Shown: positions 6,652 through 63,721 of the stretch, piece by piece
Layout: every line of letters starts with the position of its first letter
Position numbering within the stretch: the first letter of the stretch is position 1
Assembly (NCBI RefSeq): GCF_002813775.1
Contig: NZ_CP020370.1
Location: forward strand, 3,311,501-3,375,500
DNA length: 64,000 bases
Direction: 5' to 3'
DNA from: Candidatus Thiodictyon syntrophicum
GTDB lineage: Bacteria > Pseudomonadota > Gammaproteobacteria > Chromatiales > Chromatiaceae
Position numbers and translations under genes: made by a program
The notes under the pieces: generated by a model
What the model was told of the DNA's origin: nothing
Database searches by the model: none
What the model saw: only the letters and a program-made list of their open reading frames with translations

Positions 6652-7557
6652 TTACGGGTGCTCGGCACCCCACAACCAGGCCGCGCCGCGCACGCCGCTG
6701 GAGTCGCCGTGGACCGGGGGGAGGATGCGGGTGGCCAGACCGTCGCAGAAGAGCCAGGGGCGGATCAGGGCGGGGAGGGCCTCGTAAAGGTGGGGGAGGT
6801 TGGACAGGCCCCCGCCCAGGACGATGACCGCGGGGTCGAGCAGGTTGATGACGGTCGCGAGGCTGCGCGCCAGGCGCTCGGCGTGGCGCGCGAGTGTGGC
6901 CGCGGCGGCCGGCTCGCCGCGGGCGGCGGCGGCCCGGATCTCCGGCGGCGTGCGCGTGAGACCAGTATGGCGCTGATGGTCGGCGGCCAGTCCCGGTCCG
7001 GACAGGAAGGTCTCGATGCATCCGTGTTTGCCGCAGTAGCAGGGCGGGCCGGGCGACTCGTCGGGCTGCGGCCAGGGCAGGGGGTTGTGGCCCCATTCGC
7101 CGGCGATGGCGTTGGGTCCGGCCAGGAGTCGGCCCCCGACCACGATCCCGCCGCCGGTCCCGGTGCCGATGATGACCCCGAAGACGCAGGCAGCCCCGCG
7201 GCCGGCGCCGTCGGTGGCCTCGGAGAGGGCGAAGCAGTCGGCGTCGTTGGCCAGGCGCACCGGCCGCCCCAGGCGCTCGGCCAGGTCCAGGTCCAGGGGC
7301 CGGTCGTTGAGCCAGACGGAGTTGGCGTTGCGCAGCCGCCCGGTGAAGGGTGAGAGTGCCCCGGGGGTACCGATGCCGATGCTGCCCGGTTGACCGGCCG
7401 CCGACTCGATGGCAGCGATCAGCCCGGTGATCGCCCCCAGGGTCGCGCCGTAGTCGCCCCGGGGCGCCGCGATCCGGTGCCGGGCCAAGACCCGGCCCTC
7501 GGAGTCAAGGGCGATGGCCTCGATCTTGGTTCCGCCCAGGTCCACGCCGATACGCAT
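6652..7557 (-). CDS. mak: ROK family sugar kinase, fructokinase/manno(fructo)kinase-like
   Basis: 301 residues from ATG 7557, which has GGGAG 8 nt upstream; a GTG at 7572 would add five residues. The N-terminus MRIGVDLGGTKIEAIAL is the ROK phosphate-binding motif. NDADCFALSEA, IGTGTGGGIVV and GEWGHNPLPWP follow, then the ROK zinc site made of that His and the cysteines in CYCGKHGC. VIVLGGGLSN and GDSSGVRGAAWLW complete the fold. The full pattern is closest to Mak/YajF-type kinases, cytoplasmic enzymes that phosphorylate fructose or mannose at C6. Sugar specificity cannot be proved from sequence. Confidence 0.85.
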   Translation of the reverse strand: MRIGVDLGGTKIEAIALDSEGRVLARHRIAAPRGDYGATLGAITGLIAAIESAAGQPGSIGIGTPGALSPFTGRLRNANSVWLNDRPLDLDLAERLGRPVRLANDADCFALSEATDGAGRGAACVFGVIIGTGTGGGIVVGGRLLAGPNAIAGEWGHNPLPWPQPDESPGPPCYCGKHGCIETFLSGPGLAADHQRHTGLTRTPPEIRAAAARGEPAAAATLARHAERLARSLATVINLLDPAVIVLGGGLSNLPHLYEALPALIRPWLFCDGLATRILPPVHGDSSGVRGAAWLWGAEHP

Positions 7558-7603
7558 CCGGTTGACTCCCACTCGAAGGCTTCAGACCGAGAAAGAGGAC
7601 TTG

Positions 7604-7684
7604 TCCGCAAATGAACGCAAATAAACGCAAATAGGACCAAAATCCGTTCCTCTTGATTTGCGTTTATTTGCGTTCATTTGCGGA
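7604..7684. repeat. perfect 29-bp inverted repeat of the GCAAATGAAC family
   Basis: Arms 7604-7632 and 7656-7684 are exact reverse complements built from iterated TCCGCAAATGAACGCAAATA units, with a 23-bp loop. Related elements lie at 17701-17828 and 50235-50377. It sits between two minus-strand genes. A MITE-like origin or a role in mRNA ends is possible. Confidence 0.85.
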
Positions 7685-7722
7685 CCGAATCTTCTTGCGG
7701 TGTTGGGACCTTGCCTGGACGC

Positions 7723-9183
7723 TCAGCCCTGGGGGCCGAAGGGGCTCTCGGAGCCGGACGGGTTGGTGAAGCGGTCATTGAGCGTCTGGACATAGGCATC
7801 GCAGTTCTGCAACACCTGCTCGACGCGCCGCCGTGCCTCGGGGCCCCAGCCGGCGGGGGTGGCGGCGAGGACGGTCCGCCAGGGCGTGGTGTTGTACGCA
7901 AAGGCGCCCGCCAGGTTGCCCTCCACATTGGACGCCGCGGCCCGCAGGCGCACCCAGTCCACCAGGCCCTTGGTGGCCAGGCGGCGGATCCCGAAGTGAG
8001 CGGCCAGGGCCAGCCCGGCCAGGATGCCGAACAGGGCCTTGGGTCCCCAACTGACCTGCTCGAGGACGGTGTACCAGGGCGGATCGTAGGTCAGACCCTG
8101 CCAGTGCCCGGCACCGATGCTCCAGAACAGAAACATGACCCCGACGATCGCCAGGAGGATCGCATCGGCGGTCAGGACCCGCCGGCGCCAGCGCGACAGG
8201 GCCTGCGTCAGGATGGGTGCGGCGCCCTCGCCGATGTCGTTGGCGGTCTTGTCCAGGGCGCCGACGATGCGGTAGGCGCGCTCCACCTCCACCGAGTGCA
8301 TCCGGCCGTGGATCTCGGCCAGATCCGTGTCGCGCTTGCTTTCATAGCGGCGGCGCAGGGCTGGCTCCTCGATCGGGCTGGCCGCCTCCGGGCAATAAAT
8401 GGTATAGAAGCGCCCGGCGGTCAGGCCCTCTTCCCCCAGTGCCCGTTGCCAGGCGGCCACGACGTCCTCCGGATTGTCCTCGCGGGCGGTCATGTCGATC
8501 TGGTTCAGGATGAACATGAACTTGCCGGGGTCGGCGCGGTGGATGGTCTTGCCCACCAGGTGGTGCAGGGTGTCGCGCATGGCGCCCGGCTCCGGGTGGC
8601 GGGCGTCGAAGAAGACCAGGACCAGGTCGGAGAGGTCGATGATGTGGTCGACGATGCGCAGCGTTGCGGTCCGCTGCTTGTCGGCGTCGAAGCCGGGGGA
8701 GTCGATCAGGATCTTGCCGCGCAGGACCTCGCTCGGGCAGGCCTTCAGTTGCAGATAGGCGTCGATGCGCGCCCCCTCACCGCTGGCCACCTGATTGATG
8801 CTGCTGGAGATCCGATACAGCGGGAAGCGCGGGTCCGCGTCCAGGGCAACCCCGGGCAGGGCCTGGGTGGTCGCGGCACGGCTGTAGCAGATGACGGTGA
8901 AGCGATCATCCACCGCCTGATTGCCGGTGCGCTGGACCTTCTGCCCCAGGTAGTGGTTGATGAAGGTGGACTTGCCGGAGGAGAAGGTCCCCAGGACCGA
9001 GATCAGGGGCCACCAGGGGATCTGGGTGGCGTAGGACTCGCCGGTCGGCAACAGCCCCATGGCGTGGGCGACCTTGTCCAGTTCCCGGAAGCTCTGCACG
9101 GCGCTCAGGAGCACCGGGTTTTCCTGCTCCAAATGACGTTCCAGGTTGATCAGGCGCTGGGACACGACCTCTTCTGACGGCAT
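7723..9183 (-). CDS. dynamin-like membrane-associated GTPase
   Basis: 486 residues, ATG preceded by AAGGA (about 8 nt). The N-terminal helical part is followed by a G domain: SVLGTFSSGKSTFIN (P-loop, about residues 63-77), ILIDSPGFD (G3, DxxG) and FILNQIDM (G4, NQxD-like). These features resemble EHD/dynamin-type GTPases that remodel or tether membranes. Two hydrophobic segments follow: LTADAILLAIVGVMFLFWSI (about 330-350) and LFGILAGLALAAHFGI (about 382-400), so it is probably an inner-membrane protein with the G domain in the cytoplasm. The C-terminus is helical. No partner dynamin lies next to it. The cellular role is unknown. Confidence 0.75.
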   Translation of the reverse strand: MPSEEVVSQRLINLERHLEQENPVLLSAVQSFRELDKVAHAMGLLPTGESYATQIPWWPLISVLGTFSSGKSTFINHYLGQKVQRTGNQAVDDRFTVICYSRAATTQALPGVALDADPRFPLYRISSSINQVASGEGARIDAYLQLKACPSEVLRGKILIDSPGFDADKQRTATLRIVDHIIDLSDLVLVFFDARHPEPGAMRDTLHHLVGKTIHRADPGKFMFILNQIDMTAREDNPEDVVAAWQRALGEEGLTAGRFYTIYCPEAASPIEEPALRRRYESKRDTDLAEIHGRMHSVEVERAYRIVGALDKTANDIGEGAAPILTQALSRWRRRVLTADAILLAIVGVMFLFWSIGAGHWQGLTYDPPWYTVLEQVSWGPKALFGILAGLALAAHFGIRRLATKGLVDWVRLRAAASNVEGNLAGAFAYNTTPWRTVLAATPAGWGPEARRRVEQVLQNCDAYVQTLNDRFTNPSGSESPFGPQG

Positions 9184-9521
9184 GGGAGATTCCTTATGAA
9201 AAGAATGAACTGCGAATGCTCAGGCGCGCCTGCCAGGGGCCGGCGGGCGAGGCCGCGTCCGCCTGCCGGCCGGGCTGCGCGAGCGGCGGCCGGCCTCGTG
9301 GTGGCGTTTTAATTGACCGCGGATGGTATACCGATCGACCTTGGCGCGGTAGTCTGGCGCTCGCCCGGGTCCCGTCCCAGGGGTAGCGGCGCCGGTCAGG
9401 GCCTTGTGCGGTCACTGGCAGGCGCGCCGGTGGTCGTGCGAGCGGCGCGGCGGGGGTTCTCGGACGCCCCCGGGGAGGTCCCGATTCCCCGCTGCTTTTT
9501 CCTCTGTTCTCCGCGCGTTGC

Positions 9522-9551
9522 TTGAATGCGTACGGGGCGCGCGTGCATACT
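9522..9551 (+). promoter_or_regulatory. candidate sigma70-like promoter for the RND efflux genes
   Basis: TTGAAT (9522-9527) and CATACT (9546-9551) are spaced by 18 bp, about 95 bp upstream of the periplasmic adaptor gene. The remainder of the 460-bp gap (9184-9645) between the divergent GTPase and efflux genes shows no gene I can support. Confidence 0.35.
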
Positions 9552-9645
9552 GTCCGGCGAACAGTGTCGCGGCGGTCGCGGCCGCCCTCGCCGGCCGATA
9601 TTTCGATCCGGACTATAGCGTTTCGTGTGCGATACGATGGGAACT

Positions 9646-10809
9646 ATGACTAGAAGTAAGCTCGGTGCCTGTTTTCTTGTCCTTGCCGCCTGGGTCGGAG
9701 CCGGCGCTGCCGCGCCGCCGCCCGCGGACCTTGGCGAGTCGGTCGTGGTCCAGCAGGCCCAGGGGGCGCCCAGCGTCTCCTTGGGCGGGACCGTGATCCC
9801 CTACAAGGAGGTGGTCCTGTCGGCCCAGTTGCCGGGCCGGGTCGCCTATCTGGCCGGGATCGAGGGCGATAACTTCAAGGCGTCCGACCTCCTGGTGGGG
9901 ATCGACGACGCCGAACTGCTCGCCAAGCGGCGCGCCATGGTCGCCCAGATGGCGAGCGCCGACGCCCAGTTGCGCAACGCCGGGGTGCAGTACAACCGGG
10001 AGATGTTCTCGCCGCGTACCAACGCCTCCCCGGGCGGCATGGGCGTGCCCAATCTGTTCGACCAGATGTTCACCCGGCCGATGGAGGGACTCGTCGGTGA
10101 TCGGGAGCGCGGCGCCGAGCGCGGCGCGGACCTCTTCGCCTCCGGCATCCAGGTGCAGGAGGCCCAGAATACGATCATGCGTCTCCAGGCCGAACTCCAG
10201 GCCTTAGATACCAAGATCCGCGACGCGCGCAGCATCGCCCCCTTCGCCGGGGTCATCGTGAAGAAGCTCGTCGAGGTGGGGGACACCGTCCAGCCCGGCC
10301 AGCCGCTGCTCAACTACGCCGATGTGGAGTATCTCCAGGTGGAGGTGGACGTGCCGGCGCGCCTGCGCCCGGGGCTGCGCGAGGGCATGGTGGTCACCGC
10401 GGAGTTGGACCTGCATAACCGCCGGGTGCCGGTGCGGGTGGCCCAGATCTTCCCCGTGGCCGACAGCCAGCGCCATACGGTCAAGGTCAAGTTCGATCTG
10501 CCCCAAGGCGTCTCCGCGCCTGGCATGTATGCCAAGGTGCTGATCCCCGACAGCAGCGACAGCGGCGCCGCGGCGCGTGCCAATCCGGTGATCCCGCGCA
10601 GCGCGATCCGCTACAACGGCAGCCTGCCCGGGGTCTACGTCCTGGGTGACGGCGGCGAACCCCAGTTGCGGCTGATCCGCATCGGCGAGGACCAGAGCGA
10701 CGGCTTCGTCACCGTGCTGAGCGGCCTGGCGGCGGGTGAGCGGGTGCTCGTGAACCCGGGGCCGCGCGTGACCGCGGGCTGGGCCAAAGAGGGTGTTCCG
10801 TCCCGGTAG
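9646..10809 (+). CDS. RND efflux periplasmic adaptor (membrane fusion protein)
   Basis: 387 residues from ATG 9646; this start puts a signal peptide (KLGACFLVLAAWVGAGAAA) at the very N-terminus, whereas the frame start at 9625 adds seven residues. The lipoyl half PYKEVVLSAQLPGRVAYL, a helical hairpin, and the second half APFAGVIVKKLVEVGDTVQP are the HlyD/AcrA-type elements. A beta-barrel and membrane-proximal domain follow. The protein links an inner-membrane RND pump to an outer-membrane channel. The pump gene begins 348 bp downstream, with a repeat element between them; no TolC-like gene is present. Confidence 0.85.
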   Translation: MTRSKLGACFLVLAAWVGAGAAAPPPADLGESVVVQQAQGAPSVSLGGTVIPYKEVVLSAQLPGRVAYLAGIEGDNFKASDLLVGIDDAELLAKRRAMVAQMASADAQLRNAGVQYNREMFSPRTNASPGGMGVPNLFDQMFTRPMEGLVGDRERGAERGADLFASGIQVQEAQNTIMRLQAELQALDTKIRDARSIAPFAGVIVKKLVEVGDTVQPGQPLLNYADVEYLQVEVDVPARLRPGLREGMVVTAELDLHNRRVPVRVAQIFPVADSQRHTVKVKFDLPQGVSAPGMYAKVLIPDSSDSGAAARANPVIPRSAIRYNGSLPGVYVLGDGGEPQLRLIRIGEDQSDGFVTVLSGLAAGERVLVNPGPRVTAGWAKEGVPSR

Positions 10810-10839
10810 CAGCGTCACCGCGGCTGAGAATAATTCGTA

Positions 10840-11046
<207 letters not shown>

Positions 11047-11157
11047 TTACCAACTGGCCGGCGCCCTTTTCCGCCAGCCTTTTCCATCCGATGTGCGGCA
11101 GCGGGCCCGCGCCCGACCTGAACGACGCCGCGCCGCAGCGGATTGACTGGAAATCTC

Positions 11158-14100
11158 ATGAGCCAAGAAGTGACTGTTGCCCCCGACCACCAAGAGCCGC
11201 CCGTGGCCGAGGAGCACCTGGGGATCGCCGGGCGCACCGCCCGGTTTTTCATCCGCTCCCCACTCTCCCCGCTCTTCTATGTCGCCATGCTGCTCATGGG
11301 GCTCCTGGGGCTGATCCTGACGCCGCGCCAGGAGGACCCGCAGATCTCGGTGCCCATGATCGACATCATGGTGCAGTACCCGGGGGCCTCGGCCCAGCAG
11401 GTCGCCAATATGGCGATGCAGCCCCTGGAGCGGATCATGAGCGAGATCCCCGGGGTCAAGCACGTCTACTCCGCCTCCCAGCGCGGCCGGGGCTTCGTCA
11501 CCGTCGAATTCGACGTGGGCCAGCCGATGGGGCCCTCGCTCGTGAAGGTGAACGACAAGCTCGCCTCCAACATGGACAAGATCCCCCCGGGGGTCCTGCC
11601 GCCGCTCGTGAAGAGCAAGGGTGTGGATGACGTGCCGATCGTTACCCTGACCCTGTGGTCCAAGGACCTGGACCAAAACGGCGCCCCGGATGTCGATGAC
11701 GGGCAGTTGCGCCTGCTCGCCCAGGACGTGCTCCAGGCGATCGGTCAGGTCAAGAACACGGGGCCCGGCATGATCACCGGCGGGCGGCGCGAGCAGGTTA
11801 CCGTCGATGTCTATCCGGAGCGCCTGTCCGGCTATCAGATCAGCCTGGACCAGGTGGCACAGACGCTCAAGACCGCTAATGCCGAGGCCTCCGCCGGCGG
11901 CCTGGAGACCAGTGGTTCACACTTCACCCTCACCAGCGGCTCCTTCCTGACGGGTGTGGATGACATCAACCGGCTGGTGGTCGGCACCTTCAACAAGGCG
12001 CCGGTCTATATCCGTGATCTGGCACGGGTCACCCTGGGGCCCGAGGATGCGACCCAGTTGGTGGCCTATTACACGGGGCCGGCGGCGGCGCGGCAGGACG
12101 CACCCCAGGGCCGTCCGGCGGTGACTATCGCCGTGGCCAAGAAGGAATTGACCAATGGCGTGACGGTCGCGAACGCCATCATGGACCGGGTGGAGGAGTT
12201 GAAGGGCAGCCGCATCCCCAACAATGTCGAGGTCAGCGTCACCCGCAACTACGGTCAGACGGCGGACCAAAAGGTCACAGAGCTGATCCTCAAGCTGATC
12301 AAGGCGACCTTCTTCGTCTTCGTGCTGGTGCTCTTTGCCTTCCGCGCGCTGCGCCCCGCTATCGTGGTCATGCTGGTGATCCCGGTGGTGCTCTTCATGA
12401 CGGTCTTCGTGGCCTGGATCTGGGGCATCACGATCGACCGGGTGAGTCTGTTCGCGCTCATCTTCTCGATCGGCATCCTGGTGGACGATGCCATCGTCGT
12501 GATCGAGAACATCTACCGGCGCTGGCTGGCGGACGGCCGCACCGACGACGCGACCGCGGTGGACGCGGTGCGCGAGGTCGGCAATCCCACCATCCTCGCC
12601 ACCTTCACCGTCATCGCCGCCCTGCTGCCCATGGGCTTCGTGAGCGGCATGATGGGGCCCTATATGGCGCCGATCCCCAAGCTCGGGTCGGTGGCGATGT
12701 TCATCTCACTGTTCGCGGCCTTTGTCTTCACCCCCTATCTCGCCATCTCCAAGTGGCTGCGTCCCTCGCTTGCGTACCTGGCCGCGGCGGAGAAGCGCGA
12801 GCACCGGGACGCCGAATATATCGAGCGCTTCTTCCGCGCCATCCTGACGCCCCTGATCGAGAGCCCGAAAAAGCGGCGCATCTTCCGCCTGGCCCTGTGG
12901 GGGAGTTTCCTGCTCGCCTGCTCCCTGTTCTATTTCCAATGGGTGGCGGTGAAGATGATGCCGCTCGACAACAAGCCCGAGTTCTCGGTCGTCATCGACA
13001 TGCCCCAGGGCACGGCCCTGCCGGTGACGGCGAACCTGGCCGACACCCTGGCGCAGAAGCTGCGGGAGCTGCCCGAGGTGACCGCCCTGCAGGTCTATGC
13101 CGGGACCGCGCGTCCCTTCGACTTCAACGGCATGGTCCGGCACTATTACATGCGCACCGAGCCCTGGCAGGCGGAGATCCAGGTGCAACTCACCGACAAG
13201 CACGAGCGTCACCGCACCAGTCACGAGATCGCGGTCGCGGCGCGCGAGACCCTGGACGCCCTGGTGGCGGACCTCAAACCGGCGCTGCGGCCGACGCTCG
13301 CGGTGGTGGAGATGCCCCCCGGGCCCCCGGTCCTGCAGTCGGTGGTGGCCGAGATCCATGGGCCTACGCCCGCCCTGCGGCGGCAGTTCGCCCAGGATCT
13401 CACCGATTTTTTCCGCAAAGCGGAGAGCGCCCGCGACGTGGACAATTATCTGCGCGGTGGCTATGACTATTGGCGCTTCGATGTGGACACCGAGAAGGCG
13501 GTGCGGCGCGGCATCTCGGTGGACACGATCAACCGCAATCTGACCATGGCCCTGGGCGGGGCCCCCATCGGGGACATCAAACAGGGGGCGGGCCAGCAGA
13601 GCGGCCACGAGCCCACCCAGATCGTCCTGCAGGTCCCGCTGGCGGAGCGCTCCCGGGTCGACGCCCTGGGCGACCTGCCGATCTCATCGAACCAGGGGTT
13701 CACGGTCCCCTTGCGTGAACTGGGCCAGTTGCGTCTCGCCAAGGAAGAGGATGTTATCTACAACAAGGACTTGCGGGGGGTGGAATATGTGGTGGCGGAT
13801 GTCGGCGGACGCCTCGCGGCGCCGGTCTATGCCATGTTCCAGGTGCAGGACCTGATGGCGGCGGCCGCCTACCGGGCCCCGGACGGCACCAGCCCCGCCG
13901 CCGGTGGGGGCTTGGACGACGCCTTTTACTGGCTGGGGCCCCCGCCGGCCTCCGACCGGCTGTCCCTGGCGTGGGCGGGGGAGTGGACCGTGACCTTCGA
14001 GACCTTCCGCGATATGGGCGGGGCCTTCATTGTCGCCCTGCTGCTGATCTATATCCTGGTGGTCTGGGAGTTCGGCAACTTCCGTATCCCGCTCGTGATC

Positions 14101-54831: not shown

Positions 54832-56595
54832 TTGATCACCAACCCGATGCGTGATCAAGGCGGGGCGCAACGACCGCCCAGCGATCCCAGGCCGGTCGAG
54901 GACCCGGCGACCGCCGCGCAACGGATTGCGCGTGAGGGCCTGGCCTTCAATCGCCTGATCCTGGACTCGGTCAGCGCCGAGATCGCCGTACTGGACGGTA
55001 ACGGGGTCATCCTGGCGGTCAACCAACCCTGGCAGCGGGTCGCGCTGGAGAACGGCAGCGAGCCCGCCCAGCCGGCCGCGGGAACCGGCGTCGGCGCCAA
55101 TTACCTGGCGGTCTGCTGTGCCGTGGCCGACGCCGACGCGCAATCCAATGAGGCCGCGGTCGGTGCCGGCAACGGCATCCGGGCGGTGCTGACCGGCCAG
55201 ATCGCCGACTTCCAGATGGAACTGCCCTGCCATTCACCGCACCGACAGCGCTGGTTCAGCATGAGTGTCACCCCGCTGGGATGCGCCGGCGCCGGCGTGG
55301 TCGTCGCGCATACCGACATCACCAACAAGCGCAAGCAGGCGGAGATCGCGCTGCAAAAATCCAACGAACTGTTCCAGTCCGTCTTGGACAATGTGCCGGC
55401 CCGCGTCTTCTGGAAGGATCGGCAGTCGTGCTATCTTGGCTGTAACAAATTGTTTGCGAACGATGCCGGGTGCGCCGACCCGGACGCTCTGAGCGGCAGG
55501 ACCGACCTCGACCTGGCGTGGGCAGATCAGGCTGAATTATATCGCGCCGACGATCAGGCGGTGATGGACTCCGGCCGTCCCAGGCTGAATTACGAGGAGC
55601 CGCAGACGACGCCGGACGGTGACCTGATCTGGCTGCGCACCTCCAAGGTGCCGATGCGTGATGAAGACCATCAGGTCATCGGCATCCTGGGGGTCTACGA
55701 GGATATCACCGACGCGAAGCGCAGCGCCGATGAACTGGATCGACATCGCCACCACCTGGAGGAACTGGTTGAGACCCGCACCTGCGACCTGGAGGCCGCC
55801 AGGACCGCGGCGGATCGAGCTAACCGCGCCAAGACTGAATTCATTTCCACGATGAGCCATGAACTGCGCAGCCCGCTCAATGCGATCCTTGGATTCGCCC
55901 AACTACTGGAGTTCGAGGCCCCCCCGCCGACCCCCACGCAGCAGGATAGCATCACCCAGATCGTGCAGGCGGGTTGGCACTTGCTGACCCTGATCAACGA
56001 CATCCTCGATCTCGGGAAGGTGGAGTCCGGTCGGACGCCGCTGACGCTGACGGCGGTGCCCCTGACCGAAATTGCAGGCGAATGCTGCGACATGATCGAA
56101 CCGCAGGCGCAACAGCAGGGCATCCGGGTGACCAGGCAGCGGATCAGCACACCCCAGTGGGTGCGTGCCGACCGCACCAGGGTCAAGCAGGTGCTCATCA
56201 ACCTGTTGTCGAACGCGGTTAAATATAACAGCCAGCCGGGGACGATCGAGGTGGACTGTGCCGCGAGCACCGCGGGACGCATCCGCGTGAGCGTCACGGA
56301 CAGCGGCGCGGGATTGTCGCCGGAGCAACTGACACAGATCTTCCAACCGTTCAATCGTCTCGGCCAGGAGAAGAGCGGTAAGGAAGGTACCGGCATCGGG
56401 CTGGTGCTGGCCAAGCGGCTGGTCGAACTGATGGGGGGCGTCGTCGGCGTGGACAGCACCGTCGGGGTGGGCAGCGTATTTTGGTTTGAACTCGTCGCGA
56501 CCGATGAACCGCTGACGCTGCCGCAGCCGGCGACGGAAGATTCAAAAGAGGGCGACGACGTGCCAATCGAGGGGATTGCTGGATATTATGATTGA
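54832..56595 (+). CDS. PAS-PAS sensor histidine kinase
   Basis: 587 residues from TTG 54832; ATG 54847 is an alternative start. PAS-like domain 1 about 35-165 (LDSVSAEIAVLDGNGVILAV; VVVAHTDITNKRKQ), PAS 2 about 175-300 (VLDNVPARVFWKDRQSCYLG; ILGVYEDITDAKRS). HisKA has the phospho-acceptor H343 (STMSHELRSPLNAIL), and the ATPase domain has the N box NLLSNAVKYNS, VTDSGAGLSPEQL and GTGIGLVLAKRLVELMGG. No membrane segment, so a cytoplasmic sensor. It overlaps the next gene by 8 nt, making an evident two-component pair. Confidence 0.9.
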   Translation: MITNPMRDQGGAQRPPSDPRPVEDPATAAQRIAREGLAFNRLILDSVSAEIAVLDGNGVILAVNQPWQRVALENGSEPAQPAAGTGVGANYLAVCCAVADADAQSNEAAVGAGNGIRAVLTGQIADFQMELPCHSPHRQRWFSMSVTPLGCAGAGVVVAHTDITNKRKQAEIALQKSNELFQSVLDNVPARVFWKDRQSCYLGCNKLFANDAGCADPDALSGRTDLDLAWADQAELYRADDQAVMDSGRPRLNYEEPQTTPDGDLIWLRTSKVPMRDEDHQVIGILGVYEDITDAKRSADELDRHRHHLEELVETRTCDLEAARTAADRANRAKTEFISTMSHELRSPLNAILGFAQLLEFEAPPPTPTQQDSITQIVQAGWHLLTLINDILDLGKVESGRTPLTLTAVPLTEIAGECCDMIEPQAQQQGIRVTRQRISTPQWVRADRTRVKQVLINLLSNAVKYNSQPGTIEVDCAASTAGRIRVSVTDSGAGLSPEQLTQIFQPFNRLGQEKSGKEGTGIGLVLAKRLVELMGGVVGVDSTVGVGSVFWFELVATDEPLTLPQPATEDSKEGDDVPIEGIAGYYD

Positions 56596-57652
56596 CCAAA
56601 CTGCAATTCTTGACGCACGCATTTTGATCGTTGACGATCTGGAAGTGAATGTCAAGTTGCTGGCACGCATACTGGGCTCGGCCAAGTATCGCTGCGTCAG
56701 TTCGACCATGGACCCGGGCGCGGTCTGTTCGCTTCATCGCCGGCACCGCTACGACCTCATCGTGCTCGATCTGCTGATGCCGGATATGGACGGATTCCAG
56801 GTGATGGAAGGGCTCAAGGAGATCGAGCCGGACGGCTATCTGCCGGTGCTGGTCATCAGTGCTCAACCGGGGCACAAGCTGCGGGCGCTCAAGGCCGGCG
56901 CGCGCGATTTCATCAGCAAGCCATTTGAATTGCCCGAGGTGCTGGCGCGCGTCCACAACCAACTGGAAATGCACTTGATGCACAAGGAGTTACGTGATTT
57001 CAACGGCATTCTGGAGCAACGCGTTGCGGACCGCACCAGGGCCCTGAAGGACAGCTATCTGGAGACCATCTTCACGATGACGCGCGCGGCCGAGCACAAG
57101 GACGAGGACCTCGGTTCCCATGTGCAGCGCATCAGTCATTACAGCCGCGCGCTCGCCGTGCAGCTCGGCCTGGATAAAGAGTTCGTCGACCTGATTTTTT
57201 TCGCCAGCCCGATGCACGACATCGGCAAGATCGGTATCCCCGACCAGCTCCTGCTCAAGCCGGGCGCCTTGACGCCGGACGAGTGGGAGATCATGAAGCG
57301 GCACACCACGATGGGCGCTCGGATCCTCGGCCAGGGGACCTCGCCCTATCTCAGGATGGGTGCCGAGATCGCACGCAGTCACCACGAGCGGTGGGACGGC
57401 GGTGGTTATCCGCACGGCACGCGTGGTGAGGCGATTCCACTGGCGGCGCGCATCATGAATATCTGTGACATCTACGACGCCCTGCGCAGCAAGCGACCCT
57501 ATAAGCCCGCCTTCGATCATCACCAGGCGTGCGAGATCATCATTCGGGGCGATAACCGCATCCAGCCCGAACATTTCGATCCGGCGATTCTGGCGGCGTT
57601 TACGCAGCACCAGCAGGTATTCGGCGACATTTTCGAGGAATGCACCACATAG
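56588..57652 (+). CDS. response regulator with HD-GYP c-di-GMP phosphodiesterase domain
   Basis: 354 residues from ATG 56588, overlapping the kinase gene. The receiver domain (8-125) has acidic pair D16/D17, phospho-acceptor D61 (LIVLDLLMPDMDG) and the conserved lysine in DFISKPFE. After a coiled coil, the HD-GYP domain (about 165-350) shows MHDIGKIGIPDQLLLKPG with H210 and D211, RHTTMGARIL, SHHERWDGGGYPHG and NICDIYDALRSKRPYK. Active HD-GYP proteins hydrolyse c-di-GMP to GMP; all motif residues look intact. Confidence 0.92.
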   Translation: MIDQTAILDARILIVDDLEVNVKLLARILGSAKYRCVSSTMDPGAVCSLHRRHRYDLIVLDLLMPDMDGFQVMEGLKEIEPDGYLPVLVISAQPGHKLRALKAGARDFISKPFELPEVLARVHNQLEMHLMHKELRDFNGILEQRVADRTRALKDSYLETIFTMTRAAEHKDEDLGSHVQRISHYSRALAVQLGLDKEFVDLIFFASPMHDIGKIGIPDQLLLKPGALTPDEWEIMKRHTTMGARILGQGTSPYLRMGAEIARSHHERWDGGGYPHGTRGEAIPLAARIMNICDIYDALRSKRPYKPAFDHHQACEIIIRGDNRIQPEHFDPAILAAFTQHQQVFGDIFEECTT

Positions 57653-58114: not shown

Positions 58115-59650
58115 TCAGACCCCGAGCGGTCCCTCGTTGGTGAACAGTTGCCCCAGGCGTTCGATTTCGGCGGGGGGGACGTGGCGCGGGTGGCCGGCGA
58201 GGATGCCGGTGACGTTGCGGAAGGGGGCGCCGATATGCATGCCGGCGCCGTCGATGGTGAAGGCGCGGATGTCCTTGTCGTGGGCGGAGCCGCGCATCTT
58301 GAGCACCGTCAGGCCGCGCTTCATCTCGCCGAACATCTCCACATAGCGCAACAGGATGATGGCGTCGGTGATGGTGGAGATGTGGGTTTCGGTGACCGAC
58401 TCGCCGCCCATCAGGCTGCTGGTGGTGGCGGTGAAGAGGCCGGCGATCTCCTGGTGCTTGATGAAGCTCGTGAGGCTGATCACGAACTCGCGAAAGCCCT
58501 TGATGGAGCTGACCCGCTCCAGGGCGGAGAGGCTGTCCACCGCGACCCGGTTGGGTTTGAACGACTCGATCTCGCGCTTGATGCGGATCAAATGGTCTTC
58601 CAGCCCGGCGGCCTCCGGATAGACGGCGACCACCCGCAGCAGGCCTTCGCGCTCGTAGCGGTCGAAGTCGCGGCCCCAGCCGGAGGCATTGCGGCTCAAT
58701 TGGTCGCGACTCTCCTCAAACGCCATCAGCAGTGAGCGCTCGCCCTGGGCCACGCCCCCGGCGATGAATTCGGTGGAGGTCAGGGTCTTGCCGCAGCCGG
58801 TGGCCCCGGATACCAGGATGACCGAATCGCGGAAGAAGCCGCCCCCGCACATGGCGTCGAGTTCGACATTGCCGGAGGTGATGCGCGTATAGGAGGAGCG
58901 CTGGTCCAACTCGATGGCGGAGAGCGGGATCACCACGATGCCCTGGTCGGGCATGATGGTGAAGGGGTACTCGCCCTTCTGGTGGACGGTGCCGCGGAAC
59001 TTCAGGACCTCCATGGTGCGGCGGCGCTTCTCGCCCTCCAGGACGTTGCGCAGGATCAGCACGTTGTCGGTGACGAATTCCTCCACCCCGTGGCGGCTGA
59101 TCTCGCCGTATTCATGGGTGCGCTCGGCCGTCATCACCGAGGTGACGCCCATGGCCTTGAGCGCGGAGGCGAGCCGGAACAGCTCGGCGCGGACGATGAC
59201 CTCGTTCTCGAAGCGGGAGAACACGGCCCCCAGTGAGTCGATGGCCACCCGCGTGGCCCCGACCCGGCGCACCGCCGCCTCCACCCGGACCACCAGCGCG
59301 CCCAGGTCGAAGGCCCCGCTCACCACCACCTCGTCCCCCGGCTGGGGGGCGGCATCGACAAAGGTCCACTTGCCGGCCGCCTCCCAGGCGGCGACGTCCC
59401 AGCCGAGCGAGCCGACGTTGGCGCGGATGTCCGCGCCGGACTCCTCGAAGGTGACGAAGACCCCGGACTGGTCGAATTGGCGGATGCCCTCGGCCAGGAA
59501 CTGGGCGGCGAAGATGGTCTTGGCGCTCCCGGCGGTGCCGGCCACCAGGGTGGTGCGGCCGGCGGGGATGCCGCCCAGGCCGATGTGGTCGAAGCCGTCG
59601 ATGCCGGTGGCCAGCTTGGTGACGGAGGGAAGCTTGCCGGGTTCAGTCAT
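58115..59650 (-). CDS. kaiC: circadian clock ATPase/kinase KaiC, two-domain
   Basis: 511 residues from ATG 59650 (GGAGA 6 nt upstream), close to cyanobacterial KaiC. Two RecA-like domains: CI with P-loop GTAGSAKT (38-45) and CII with GATGCGKT (about 285). The CII autophosphorylation segment ESVTETHISTITD aligns with the cyanobacterial site, giving S425 and T426, with T420 preceding them. IILLRYVEMFGEMKRGLTVL and KMRGSAHDKDIRAF are further KaiC blocks. The cyanobacterial C-terminal peptide that binds KaiA is partly replaced by a different tail. KaiC overlaps kaiB by 8 nt. All residues for a phosphorylating ATPase are present; whether it oscillates is unknown. Confidence 0.92.
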   Translation of the reverse strand: MTEPGKLPSVTKLATGIDGFDHIGLGGIPAGRTTLVAGTAGSAKTIFAAQFLAEGIRQFDQSGVFVTFEESGADIRANVGSLGWDVAAWEAAGKWTFVDAAPQPGDEVVVSGAFDLGALVVRVEAAVRRVGATRVAIDSLGAVFSRFENEVIVRAELFRLASALKAMGVTSVMTAERTHEYGEISRHGVEEFVTDNVLILRNVLEGEKRRRTMEVLKFRGTVHQKGEYPFTIMPDQGIVVIPLSAIELDQRSSYTRITSGNVELDAMCGGGFFRDSVILVSGATGCGKTLTSTEFIAGGVAQGERSLLMAFEESRDQLSRNASGWGRDFDRYEREGLLRVVAVYPEAAGLEDHLIRIKREIESFKPNRVAVDSLSALERVSSIKGFREFVISLTSFIKHQEIAGLFTATTSSLMGGESVTETHISTITDAIILLRYVEMFGEMKRGLTVLKMRGSAHDKDIRAFTIDGAGMHIGAPFRNVTGILAGHPRHVPPAEIERLGQLFTNEGPLGV

Positions 59651-59945
59651 GATGGTCTCCAACCAGATCGTCCGGACCGCTGAGGTCCAGACCGACCAGT
59701 ACCTTGTCTTTGTTCGAGAGGTCTCCGATGATGCGCCGCAGCGGCGGGGGCAGGGCCTTGATCAGGGTCGGGGTGGCGATGATGCGCGCGTCCTCGGCCG
59801 CCTGGGGGTCCTCGATCACGTCGATGACCTCCATCTCGTAGCGCCCCGCCAGTTCCGTCTGGCAGATGCGCTGCAGGTTGGCGATGGCCCGGTTGCCCTG
59901 GGGCGTCCGGCCGGTGATATAGAGCCTCAAGAGGTACTTACCCAT
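59643..59945 (-). CDS. kaiB: clock protein KaiB
   Basis: 100 residues. YLLRLYITGRTPQGNRAIAN, MEVIDVIEDPQAAEDARIIA, TPTLIKALPPPLRRIIGDLS and VLVGLDL follow the KaiB pattern throughout, including the ATPTL and PPP-RRIIGDL blocks of the fold-switching C-terminal half. In cyanobacteria KaiB binds phosphorylated KaiC and sequesters KaiA. It lies 56 bp after the KaiA-like candidate and overlaps kaiC by 8 nt, so it is in the same operon. Confidence 0.93.
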   Translation of the reverse strand: MGKYLLRLYITGRTPQGNRAIANLQRICQTELAGRYEMEVIDVIEDPQAAEDARIIATPTLIKALPPPLRRIIGDLSNKDKVLVGLDLSGPDDLVGDHHD

Positions 59946-60001
59946 GATGCGGTGCGATCCGATCGTGTGTGGCGATGATGGCGCCCATGATTGACCTGGG
60001 G

Positions 60002-60937
60002 TCAGCCTGGTTGCGGTTCGGCGCTGAGCGACATGCGGCTCAGATAATAGCGGCGATAGTAGCCCGCCAGATAGCCCATGAGTTCCAGGACGACGATGCG
60101 GCCCTCCAGGGCGATGTGGCGCTCCTGCGTCGGGCTGATGCGTTGGCTGAGGCGCCGCAGGGCTTCGGTGTGCAACTCAATCACGTCGCGCGGCCCGGCC
60201 CCCATGAACCCCAGCCGTTCGGCCAGGGGGCGGGCGCTGCGCTCCTCCCCCGGTCGCAGGCGGAAGACCTGGCCGGCGGCGGTTTGTTCGATCAGGCCCT
60301 GGTAGTCCGTCAGCAATTCCTCGAACAGCCCGGGGTCGCTGTCGCGCAGGTTCGCCGCCCCGTAAAGGCGCGCCGTCTCCCCGGCCCGCCCGGTTTGCGA
60401 GAGCAGGCGCCCGACCCCGCGCTGCTCGCTCTCGCGCTGGTCGACCAGGTCCGCGGCCTCCGCCCGGCGCCGCTGCTGGCCGCGCAGCCGGTGGCGCTCC
60501 ACCGCGTGGCGCAGGGCGCGGGCGAGTTGTCGGGCGTCCTGGTCGGCCGGGGACAGGTAATCCTCGGCGCCCGCCGCGATCAGGGTGCGGCCCAGGGACT
60601 CGTCCTCACTGGCGCCGCAGACCAGGATCGGCAGGTCCGGCGCCAGGGCGCGCAACTCGACCAGGGTCGGCGCCCATTGCTGCGCCGGCGGCTCCAGGCT
60701 CAGCAGGATGCAGTCGAACGGCCCGGCGGCCAGGCACTCGCGCCCGGCGGCCAGGCTCGCGGCCAGGGTCAACCGGAGCAAGCCGCCGCCGGGGCCATCC
60801 AAGAGCCGCCCGAGCGCGCGGCCGCGAGCCGGATCGGCCGCGATCAGCAGGACGGCGAGGCCCGGGTCGACCAGGCCGCCAGGGCAGCACGCCGACGGCG
60901 GCAGCGCGGCGGCCGGCGCGGTCTCCAACTCGGTCAT
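60002..60937 (-). CDS. pseudo-receiver protein with KaiA/RsbU-like C-terminal domain (KaiA-like candidate)
   Basis: 311 residues from ATG 60937, overlapping the preceding gene by 4 nt (ATGA); GTG 60949 is an alternative. Residues 27-145 look like a receiver fold lacking phospho-chemistry: LLIAADPARG retains one acidic residue, the phospho-acceptor position in FDCILLSLEPP is S80, and the lysine position in GAEDYLSPADQ is S129. Residues 203-305 form a helical domain (LFEELLTDYQGLIEQ; LAERLGFMGAGPRDVIELHT; LELMGYLAGYYRRYYL) like the KaiA/RsbU domain superfamily. Cyanobacterial KaiA also joins a pseudo-receiver to a helical KaiC-binding domain. A KaiA-like role is inference from architecture and position. 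Confidence 0.6.
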   Translation of the reverse strand: MTELETAPAAALPPSACCPGGLVDPGLAVLLIAADPARGRALGRLLDGPGGGLLRLTLAASLAAGRECLAAGPFDCILLSLEPPAQQWAPTLVELRALAPDLPILVCGASEDESLGRTLIAAGAEDYLSPADQDARQLARALRHAVERHRLRGQQRRRAEAADLVDQRESEQRGVGRLLSQTGRAGETARLYGAANLRDSDPGLFEELLTDYQGLIEQTAAGQVFRLRPGEERSARPLAERLGFMGAGPRDVIELHTEALRRLSQRISPTQERHIALEGRIVVLELMGYLAGYYRRYYLSRMSLSAEPQPG

Positions 60938-63486
60938 GGTGCGGGGCACTCGGGGGTCGGTGAAGGAGGCTGATCCGAGTTGCGCGGGGTCGCGTCGGTC
61001 GGTGCAGCGGCAAGGATACCCGATCGCGCGGCGGGCGCGTCGGCCCAGGCGTCATGATCATCGCCCCCGGGTTGCCCGGCAGCGCGATCGGCGTGCCGCG
61101 CCAGCCACCGCGGGAGTTCCTGCGCGGCCATCGGCCGGCCGAAGAAGTAGCCCTGGGCCAGGTCGCAGCCCATGTCGCGCAAGGCCGCGGCGGCGGCCGC
61201 CGTCTCCACCCCCTCGGCGATCACCTGTTTGCCGTTGCCGTGGGCCAGGGTCAGGATCGCGCTGACCAGGGCGGCATTGCCGGCGTCGCCGACCAGGTCG
61301 TGGATAAAGCGCCCGTCGATCTTGATGGCCGCGATCGGCAGACGCCGCAGCGCCGGCAGCGAGGAATAGCCGGTCCCGAAGTCGTCCACATGCAGTGCCA
61401 CCCCCAGGTCGGCGAAGCGTTGCAGCAGCGTGGGCGCGCGGTTGGTATAGGCGAACAGGGCGCCCTCGGCGATCTCCAGCACCAGCCGCCAGGGCGGGAC
61501 CCGGTAGAGATCCAGGGCGGAAGCGACCAAGGCGAACAGGTCCCCCTGGGCGGACTGGATCGGCGAGAGGTTAACCGCCAGGGTGAAGGGCTCGGCCCCA
61601 GTGTCCAACCACTCACGCAACTGGCGGCACGCCTGGTCGATCACCCAGCGCCCGACATCGACGATCAGTCCGGTGCTCTCCAGCAGGGGCAGGAAATCGG
61701 CCGGACCGACGCGTCCGCACCCCGGGCGCTCCCAGCGCAGCAGGGCCTCGAAGCCAACGCAGCGCCCGGAATCGAGCGCCACCTGGGGCTGATAGTGCAG
61801 CACCAACTCGGAGTGGAGCAGTGCCTTGCGCAGGTCCCGCTCGATCTGCAGCCGGGATTCGGCGACCTGTGCGGTATCGCGGTCGAAGACCCGGAAGGCG
61901 TTGCCGCCCTCGCGTTTGGCCTCGTACATGGCGGAGTCGGCGCGGCGCACCAGTTCGTCCGCGTCCAGTGTCCCTCCCTGAAACAGGCTGATGCCGATGC
62001 TCGGGGTCACATAGAGTTCGTGTCCCTGCGGGTTGAAGGGCAGCAGGAATGAATCCAGCAAGCGCCGCCCGACCCGCTCCGCGCCCTGTTGGTCGGCCAC
62101 ATCGTAGAACACGGCCGTGAACTCGTCCCCGCCCCAGCGGGCCACCGTATCGGAGGTGCGCGGCAGGGCCTGCAGGCGCTCGGCCACCGCGCGCAGCACG
62201 GCATCGCCCATCTCGTGGCCCAGGGTGTCGTTGATCTCCTTGAAATGATCCAGGTCCATGAACAAGACCGCCAGGCCCTTGTGTTCCCGGATGGCGAGGG
62301 TGCGTGCATGCGCGAGGCGGTCGAAGAACAGGTCGCGGTTGGCGAGGCCCGTCAGGCGGTCCTCGAAGGCGAGGCGCTGGATGCGGGTCTCCTCGACCTT
62401 GCGCTCGGTGACGTCATGGAGCATGACCAGAAAGGCGGACTGTCCCTGCCAGCGCGTCTCCGTGACCCCCATGGCGGCTACCCCGGCGCTGCCGTCGTGG
62501 CGCACGATGCGGATCTCGGTCTGACTGATATCAGCGGAGTCCTGGGTAACGGGGATGCCGAACGGCTGCCCGATGAGGCCGCCCGGCGCCGCGTCCAACA
62601 GCGTCTCGGCCGCCCGATTGGCGAACCGGATACTGCCCAGGGCGTCCAGGATCAGGATGCCGGTGCGGTTGTCTTGGATCAGGCTGTGGAAATTCTGGCG
62701 GGTCTCGTCCAGGTCGCGCGCCATCGCCGTGCGCTCGGTATGGTCGCGCATCAGTGCGATGGCGTGCCAGGACTGGTCCAGCCACAGCGGCAGTACCGAC
62801 AGTTCCACGGCAACCCGGCTGCCGTCGTAGCGCAGGGCGGTCTGGGTGACGGTCTTACCGAGCACCTCCCCGCGGCCGTCCCGGGCGAAACTCTCCAGGC
62901 CCCGCCGACAGCGCTCCTGGAGCTCCGGCGGCGCCAGGGTGGCGTGGGCGTCGCGCCCGATCAGGGTGCCGGGGGGATAGCCGAGCAGGTGTTCCGCCGC
63001 GGGGTTGGCATAGGCGATCCGCCCCCGGTCGTCGGTCAGAAAGACCCCGTCCAGGGCGGTGTCGGCGACCGCGCGCAGGGTCCCCCGCTGGGCCTCCAGG
63101 GCGGTACCGGGGGCCGCCGTGGGTGCTGCCTGACCGACTGCGGTCGGGGTCGCCCGGTGGGCGCCGCGCAGCCGCCAGCCCAGCACGAGCCCGACTATCA
63201 GCAGGGCGACGAGGGCCAGGGCGTGCGAGCGCGCCGCGCGTGGTGCGGCGCTCGTGCCGGGCGGCAGTCCCGACGGGGCGAGGGACCGGTCCACCGGCTG
63301 GCCGGAGGTCGGGATCGTCCCGTGCGTCGGCGCCTGCGGGGCCTCTCCCGCGGCGGCCTGATCAGGGCGCGCCGCGCCCAGCGCCGCCGCGGGCGCGCAG
63401 AGCACGGCCAGGGTCAAGGTCAACAGCAGGGTCCGCGCCAGGGACCGGGTCGGTCCCAGGTCGCGCGACGGAATCGCCTCAGCCAT
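60934..63486 (-). CDS. membrane-bound PAS-PAS-GGDEF-EAL protein
   Basis: 850 residues from ATG 63486; the longer frame to 63657 precedes a clear signal/anchor (TLLLTLTLAVLCAPAAALGA), so the ATG is preferred. A second membrane segment SHALALVALLIVGLVLGW follows at about 85-105. PAS domains about 135-260 (AVADTALDGVFLTDDRGRIA) and 262-375. GGDEF has RWGGDEFTAVF intact, and EAL has FEALLRWERP, VNLSPIQ, DDFGTGYSSLPALRR and VIAEGVET, so both c-di-GMP synthesis and breakdown sites look complete. The stop overlaps the KaiA-like gene by 4 nt. The operon is GGDEF-EAL, KaiA-like, KaiB, KaiC. Confidence 0.88.
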   Translation of the reverse strand: MAEAIPSRDLGPTRSLARTLLLTLTLAVLCAPAAALGAARPDQAAAGEAPQAPTHGTIPTSGQPVDRSLAPSGLPPGTSAAPRAARSHALALVALLIVGLVLGWRLRGAHRATPTAVGQAAPTAAPGTALEAQRGTLRAVADTALDGVFLTDDRGRIAYANPAAEHLLGYPPGTLIGRDAHATLAPPELQERCRRGLESFARDGRGEVLGKTVTQTALRYDGSRVAVELSVLPLWLDQSWHAIALMRDHTERTAMARDLDETRQNFHSLIQDNRTGILILDALGSIRFANRAAETLLDAAPGGLIGQPFGIPVTQDSADISQTEIRIVRHDGSAGVAAMGVTETRWQGQSAFLVMLHDVTERKVEETRIQRLAFEDRLTGLANRDLFFDRLAHARTLAIREHKGLAVLFMDLDHFKEINDTLGHEMGDAVLRAVAERLQALPRTSDTVARWGGDEFTAVFYDVADQQGAERVGRRLLDSFLLPFNPQGHELYVTPSIGISLFQGGTLDADELVRRADSAMYEAKREGGNAFRVFDRDTAQVAESRLQIERDLRKALLHSELVLHYQPQVALDSGRCVGFEALLRWERPGCGRVGPADFLPLLESTGLIVDVGRWVIDQACRQLREWLDTGAEPFTLAVNLSPIQSAQGDLFALVASALDLYRVPPWRLVLEIAEGALFAYTNRAPTLLQRFADLGVALHVDDFGTGYSSLPALRRLPIAAIKIDGRFIHDLVGDAGNAALVSAILTLAHGNGKQVIAEGVETAAAAAALRDMGCDLAQGYFFGRPMAAQELPRWLARHADRAAGQPGGDDHDAWADAPAARSGILAAAPTDATPRNSDQPPSPTPECPAP

Positions 63487-63721
63487 GGTGGTCTGCGCGG
63501 GTCTTGCAGGGTGTAGGGACCATGGGTCTGACCCGCGTCGCGACAGGGTTGAAGGGGTGCCGACGCCGCATGATATGGGTGCGGCTAGGCGGCCGGTTCG
63601 AGCAAAAAAATGCGTGCATGGCGGGTGCGTCCGCCGACGCGCAGTACGGTTGTCCACCTCTCAATGGTAGCCGATTTCTCCCGGTTTTAGCACGGACCCT
63701 GGCCGCTCGATCCTGCACAAT

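Follow-up and report, generated by a model that had tools for sequence, protein, structure and literature searches.

Does a kai locus of a purple sulfur bacterium encode a KaiA of its own? This question is raised by a gene in a 64,000-nucleotide stretch of the Candidatus Thiodictyon syntrophicum chromosome (NZ_CP020370.1, positions 3,311,501 to 3,375,500; hereafter the window), which precedes kaiB and kaiC and for which a reading made from the sequence only had proposed a pseudo-receiver joined to a KaiA-like helical domain, as in cyanobacterial KaiA. Computational analysis of the encoded protein (query P0002) revealed a receiver-fold N-terminus that has lost its phosphotransfer residues, a KaiA-fold C-terminus, the operon order of kaiA3 loci and a KaiC3-type partner. 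The proposed architecture was supported, but it is that of the already published KaiA3 type and not of a new system. We consider it probable (roughly 0.83) that the gene supplies KaiA3 to a three-gene timer, KaiA3-KaiB3-KaiC3. The system is known; what is new is that its receiver has turned into a pseudo-receiver within a single lineage, in parallel with canonical KaiA.

Relation to published KaiA3 systems

The gene lies 56 bp before kaiB, in the order and with the spacing given by the sequence-only reading, and the start of kaiC overlaps the kaiB stop (Table 1). This is the position of kaiA3, directly upstream of kaiB3 and usually followed by kaiC3, a synteny that has already been published for other bacteria (PMC11372060). 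The KaiA3 of Synechocystis PCC 6803 (Sll0485) shares with the window's protein a receiver-like N-terminus and a KaiA-like C-terminus, a gene directly before kaiB3 and (usually) kaiC3, and a KaiC3-type partner, and in vitro cycling of KaiC3 phosphorylation has been reported for it together with KaiB3 (PMC11372060). The operon analyzed here differs in that it begins with a PAS-GGDEF-EAL gene. A KaiA3 ortholog before kaiB and kaiC was also described in a phototrophic proteobacterium, Rhodospirillum rubrum (Rru_A3293; PMC10931921), an alphaproteobacterium whose protein is likened to the present one by description and not by direct sequence comparison. The window belongs to strain Cad16T, a purple sulfur bacterium (PMC5944118) whose family, the Chromatiaceae, does not appear among the KaiA3 genera named in the sections of PMC11372060 consulted. 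Among the papers listed by our literature search, which covered few subscription journals, none dealt with KaiA or KaiA3 in Chromatiaceae and none showed biochemically a three-component KaiA-driven timer in a phototrophic proteobacterium. Since Cad16T is cultured, such a timer could be tested in this strain.

The C-terminal domain resembles KaiA

As is characteristic of KaiA3, the C-terminus was found to be a KaiA-like four-helix domain. KaiA was top-ranked in the sequence-profile search, in which RsbU_N (1w53) reached an E-value of 0.9, and KaiA was again ranked first by structural alignment; the fold is thus not an unrelated one, and the earlier proposal of a KaiA-like fold was borne out. 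The RsbU N-terminal domain (PF08673, as numbered in the sequence-only reading) may be the same kind of helical domain, but it is a weaker match than KaiA, and no phosphatase domain was seen in the window's protein. A rival reading, an RsbU- or RsbR-type partner-switching regulator that stands beside kaiBC by chance, is extremely improbable, as KaiA scored better in both tests and as KaiA3 features recur in the N-terminal half, in the class of the KaiC and in the operon.

The likeness to KaiA was found by family profiles only and not with the single sequence. Single-sequence searches with P0002 returned no KaiA; Pfam and PDB gave chiefly receiver domains and NCBIfam response regulators. No Foldseek match of the C-terminal model was obtained at E 0.001 or better, and comparison of the whole model gave receiver proteins only among its 50 matches listed. 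When KaiA3 and KaiA profiles were aligned with hhalign, probabilities of 6%, 6% and 32% were obtained. Neither P0002 nor any of 11 family members matched the Pfam KaiA model (PF07688), and a cyanobacterial KaiA3 did so at E 7.9e-4, below the cut-off. Five residues that cyanobacterial KaiA is described as keeping invariant (PMC8113500), M241, D242, E251, L265 and D267, are aligned in the window's protein with L, R, a gap, V and E, respectively (hhalign register, with the numbering transferred from the L191 motif). Canonical KaiA and the window's protein share a pseudo-receiver without phospho-aspartate (Asp), a four-helix domain (KaiC-acting in canonical KaiA, putatively so here) and a gene before kaiBC, whereas the latter falls below the Pfam model, has few of the canonical invariant residues and is partnered by KaiC3 instead of KaiC1.

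The partner is a KaiC3-type KaiC

The window's KaiC was 68%, 68% and 69% (part length) identical to the second KaiC of three kaiA3-bearing cyanobacteria, compared with 55-56% to the canonical KaiC of the same organisms. The gene for this second KaiC lies beside kaiA3 in one of the three, elsewhere in another and on a separate contig in the last. The KaiA3-linked KaiCs and the cyanobacterial second KaiCs grouped together (support 82) in a FastTree phylogeny of 94 KaiCs, with canonical KaiC1 and the second, KaiC2-like class standing outside (support 100 each). Identities and tree both assign the partner to the KaiC3 type. All 68 KaiA3-linked KaiCs carried ST or SS at the phosphosite and the tail motif GIL[SATG]G; a similar GVLTG aligned at the tail-motif position in 10 of 19 class B KaiCs.

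One KaiC of the KaiA3-linked group, on a long branch, came from a Chromatiaceae genome without KaiA3 (G156), and it has lost both the phosphosite pair (AS) and the tail motif (GIVAA). G156 is a single natural example in which KaiC has changed and KaiA3 is missing. Its locus (L113, 5250-7582) holds the KaiC3-type kaiC and two kaiB genes, with no kaiA3 within 14 kb.

The receiver is eroded in the Thiodictyon/Lamprocystis clade

The N-terminus is the response-regulator-like domain typical of KaiA3; it was modeled as an intact fold and its reading frame is open. In PMC11372060 the phosphorylatable Asp is conserved except in Pleurocapsa and Microcystis, whereas in the window's protein this Asp, the conserved lysine (Lys) and the acidic pair are all replaced. 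Because the KaiA3 paper itself contains proteins without the Asp, its absence does not exclude membership. The sequence-only reading had correctly placed S80 at the phospho-Asp position, but the Lys position is occupied by P130 rather than S129. Helix alpha4, which according to PMC11372060 is absent from the KaiA pseudo-receiver, is kept in our model.

Among 82 aligned family proteins, 60 were scored for receiver residues (17 had another N-terminus, three were cut and two unclear), and 51 of these kept an acidic residue, Asp and Lys. The nine eroded receivers were six of the Thiodictyon/Lamprocystis clade, L152 and L146, which lost Lys only, and L170 (Phaeovibrio), which gave no Pfam receiver match and was classed as a pseudo-receiver from the alignment. 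Erosion within the clade is graded: the window's protein lost all four residues, in two relatives from Thiodictyon the Asp is replaced by T or N and one acidic residue is retained, and two Lamprocystis-type proteins keep Asp with Arg in place of Lys. Over the whole clade the Asp position is S, T, N and E in four proteins and D in two, and the Lys position is P, A, A, a gap, R and R.

In the three closest congener pairs, the ratio of nonsynonymous to synonymous substitution rates (dN/dS) was 0.42-0.57 for the receiver, with bootstrap upper ends of 0.69, 0.79 and 0.99, 0.21-0.24 for the C-terminal domain and 0.04-0.065 for KaiB and KaiC. Receiver values ranged from 0.33 to 0.86 over seven clade pairs, compared with 0.04-0.26 in 14 of 16 pairs of intact relatives (one further pair gave 0.46 and one had saturated dS). 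Since the clade values lie above those of intact relatives, yet the bootstrap ends stay below 1, the constraint on the receiver is relaxed but not gone.

A gene in decay, in which kaiA3 has lost its input and drifts toward loss of function in Thiodictyon, would also explain the varying Asp and Lys positions among congeners and the raised receiver dN/dS. It would further agree with the G149 homologue, which lacks the first 46 residues (and with them the first strand) and has an in-frame stop before the gene, with the match in three pieces in G147 and with the kaiC-bearing G156, which lies outside the clade and has no kaiA3. We nevertheless regard decay as unlikely, as the bootstrap intervals of the three closest pairs stay below 1, the C-terminal domain is more constrained than the receiver, and the window's receiver has an intact modeled fold and an open frame. 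In G147 (L045) both the kaiA3 homologue and kaiC are in pieces, which, like the state of G149 (L041), may reflect assembly error or real decay. In our reading, the window's domain is a pseudo-receiver that has been retained and is not dead. Loss of the Asp would then be convergent with the canonical KaiA pseudo-receiver, relatives outside the clade mostly keeping it.

A candidate histidine kinase for intact receivers

According to PMC11372060, the cognate histidine kinase of KaiA3 is not yet identified. A kinase encoded beside many kaiA3 genes with intact receivers is a concrete candidate. It was scored as a same-strand histidine kinase of one type, with a profile score of at least 280 bits within about 5 kb, some flanks being short. 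Such a kinase was present at 26 of 46 intact-receiver loci, in 25 cases upstream and in the 26th overlapping the kaiA3 start, and was found at none of the seven pseudo-receiver loci, 17 loci with other N-termini and six unclear loci. Comparison of the kinase cores across Chromatiaceae, Competibacter, Magnetococcales and Roseiflexus gave mostly 40-56% identity, and the sensor parts of six examined kinases differ (HAMP, PAS, CHASE5, HK_sensor). In G049, G050, G055, a Competibacter and a Roseiflexus genome the best match, at 360-373 bits, was the kaiA3 neighbor, although the query profile itself included four of the five; in the Competibacter genome another kinase, next to a stand-alone receiver, also scored 360 bits. 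In the four pseudo-receiver genomes searched (G000, G145, G148, G150) the best match reached 207-237 bits.

When any same-strand kinase that a motif search detected upstream was counted, the association with an intact receiver gave a Fisher p of 8e-6 over 70 rows, which are not independent; an independent tree-pair test had three to five pairs, too few to reach significance. The association is a lead, not proof. Two observations limit it: two Chromatiaceae (G080, G177) have intact receivers without a family kinase, so that a missing kinase does not by itself indicate a dead receiver, and the same kinase type stands beside the stand-alone receiver L217, with scores as high as those of kaiA3 neighbors. 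Further relatives adjoin the HD-GYP regulators L051 and L052. The idea of a kaiA3-only kinase family, derived from the core identities, was dropped for these relatives at L217 and L051/L052. L051 and L052 (in G141 and G140) are receiver-HD-GYP proteins with a receiver close to that of KaiA3 and kinases of the same type nearby. A PAS histidine kinase at the R. rubrum kaiA3 cluster (Rru_A3296) was noted before (PMC10931921).

Distribution of kaiA3 and its link to the KaiC class

The order was surveyed in 210 genomes, with a homologue defined as a match over both halves, judged from aligned ranges. Matches were obtained in 142 genomes, mostly through the receiver only; 12 genomes besides the window's own matched both halves, including G147 (three pieces), G149 (from residue 51) and G180 (residues 62-298). 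One of the seven other same-genus records (G144) had no homologue. At 11 of the 12 loci kaiB and kaiC follow directly, G147 with a KaiC fragment only; no kaiBC was found within the 18 kb examined at L050 (G180). L050 encodes, at 8104-8955, a distant KaiA3-like protein with an intact receiver and a family kinase upstream. L051 and L052 were rejected as homologues, being receiver-HD-GYP proteins without a KaiA-like half.

The converse search located KaiC at 39 sites, spread over 28 of these genomes; 12 belong to a first class, with 58-100% identity to the window's KaiC, and the other 27 to a second class, with 37-41%. With the KaiA3 profile, the gene was detected at 11 of the 12 first-class, KaiC3-type loci and at none of 19 second-class, KaiC2-like loci (19 of the 27 were covered, 18 with about 1.5 kb of flank and one with 18 kb). 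The gene is hence not missing from related kaiBC loci, and the earlier statement that kaiBC outside Cyanobacteria usually lacks kaiA held in this survey for the KaiC2-like class only.

In a phylum sample of 398 genomes, 27 matched. Five weak matches, read from their sequence as three galactokinases and two outer-membrane efflux proteins, were rejected and set the noise level of the search at E about 0.01, leaving 22 including the window's own. No relative of P0002 was detected in the viral contigs scanned. Named genomes were scanned with two C-terminal peptide patterns that do not involve kaiB or kaiC, although their source proteins came mostly from kaiBC loci. This gave 70 loci in 15 phyla and one record without phylum; many records are metagenome bins, whose phylum labels may be wrong. 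Within the DNA examined, both kaiB and kaiC were present at 66 of the 70 loci, kaiB only at L152 (a cyanobacterium), and neither at L142, L145 and L186 (the last cut by a contig end).

Proposed mechanism

In canonical KaiABC, KaiA acts as a dimer, binds the KaiC tail and is counteracted by KaiB. From the KaiA3 family, and by analogy with the canonical system, we infer that the window's protein acts on KaiC3: its C-terminal domain would work as a dimer and bind the KaiC3 C-terminal loop or tail, KaiA3 would raise KaiC3 autophosphorylation at S424/T425, and KaiB3 would then counteract KaiA3. In relatives, the receiver is probably phosphorylated by a neighboring histidine kinase. As the kinase was not found and the receiver is eroded in Thiodictyon and Lamprocystis, the domain is probably kept there for a structural role or for binding a ligand or partner, much as the pseudo-receiver of cyanobacterial KaiA. 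The receiver states within one family (intact with kinase, intact without, eroded without) suggest how the cyanobacterial KaiA pseudo-receiver could have arisen.

More tentatively, and with odds that we put somewhat below even, KaiA-like proteins might be widespread modular activators of KaiC3 with an exchangeable sensor (receiver, pseudo-receiver, PAS, MASE3 or histidine kinase). The receiver form would be driven by an adjacent ASHDLQEPLR-type kinase, and once that kinase is lost the receiver would become a pseudo-receiver; Thiodictyon would be one such case, and the forerunner of cyanobacterial KaiA perhaps another. Purple sulfur bacteria would then possess a KaiA-driven timer whose input needs no phosphorylation. 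The same C-terminal domain was found before kaiBC after PAS domains (L137, L144, L154, L165, L180), a MASE3 sensor (L148), a HisKA-HATPase core (L168) and a receiver plus PAS (L166). L167 and its kin are also among such fusions to PAS, MASE3 or histidine-kinase halves before kaiBC. Varied KaiA N-termini within cyanobacteria (REC, AtoC, PHA02030) and KaiA in two non-cyanobacterial records were described by Dvornyk and Mei (PMC8113500).

A second, shorter KaiA-like type with a motif like ARLVLVELLGHLTDFYRER was observed beside a different kaiB-kaiC set, in some cases with a kaiB on either side (Table 1). The three KaiCs of this type that were examined cluster apart, and their tail is altered to NIILG or NIVLG.

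Neighboring genes and the second kai locus

Table 1. Features of the window and loci of the shorter KaiA-like type
Feature	Position	Strand	Remark
kaiA3-like gene	60002..60937	-	311 aa; ATG at 60937, stop ending at 60002
Pseudo-receiver, residues 27-134	60536..60859	-	A33-A34 for acidic pair, S80 for phospho-Asp, P130 for Lys
S80 codon	60698..60700	-	phospho-Asp position
P130 codon	60548..60550	-	conserved Lys position
Interdomain long helix and linker, residues 135-185	60383..60535	-	
KaiA-like four-helix C-terminal domain, residues 186-309	60011..60382	-	
kaiB	59643..59945	-	KaiB3 type inferred from position and KaiC partner
kaiC, KaiC3 type	58115..59647	-	T421-H-I-S424-T425-I426 phosphosite; GILAG at 481, C-terminal tail
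PAS-PAS-GGDEF-EAL gene	60934..63657	-	upstream of kaiA3
Shorter KaiA-like type	L127 6795-7619; L155 1600-2436; L161 1087-1899; L071-L074; L081; L082		

The end of the PAS-PAS-GGDEF-EAL gene, the first of the operon, overlaps the kaiA3 ATG by four bases, and a homologue also lies upstream of kaiA3 in G147, G148 and G150. On the other side, a PAS histidine kinase and then an HD-GYP response regulator (54832-57652) are convergent with kaiC; with this pair and the GGDEF-EAL gene, the kai operon is flanked on both sides by genes of cyclic di-GMP turnover. The overlap, the homologous neighbors and the HD-GYP regulator downstream of kaiC would fit a protein that serves the cyclic di-GMP pathway and has no role in KaiC function. 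However, no GGDEF or EAL motif was found in the flanks of three Lamprocystis-like loci (5, 1.7 and 0.1 kb upstream), all of which have kaiBC, and kaiBC is the usual neighbor in the named loci (66/70). We judge this explanation very unlikely and retain that of a KaiA3.

The genome comprises 7,738,984 bases (chromosome 6,837,296). It contains a second kai locus with the order kaiC-kaiB-kaiB-GGDEF/EAL at 4.75 Mb (L038, chromosome 4742001-4760000, at 7432-12006), so that a GGDEF/EAL gene adjoins both kai loci; the KaiC of this locus belongs to the KaiC2-like class and has a long charged tail. A 'kaiCBB' with a diguanylate cyclase has been described for Cad16T (PMC5944118). The kaiA3 locus was considered as its source, but the second locus fits the gene order and tag 19820 falls near 4.65 Mb by locus-tag arithmetic; the published 'kaiCBB' is most likely the second locus. 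A KaiB-domain search of the genome gave three matches in open frames of 128-177 aa, which are too short for a SasA kinase. Opposite kaiA3, the plus strand holds a 334-aa open frame (59969-60973), as is expected for a GC-rich genome.
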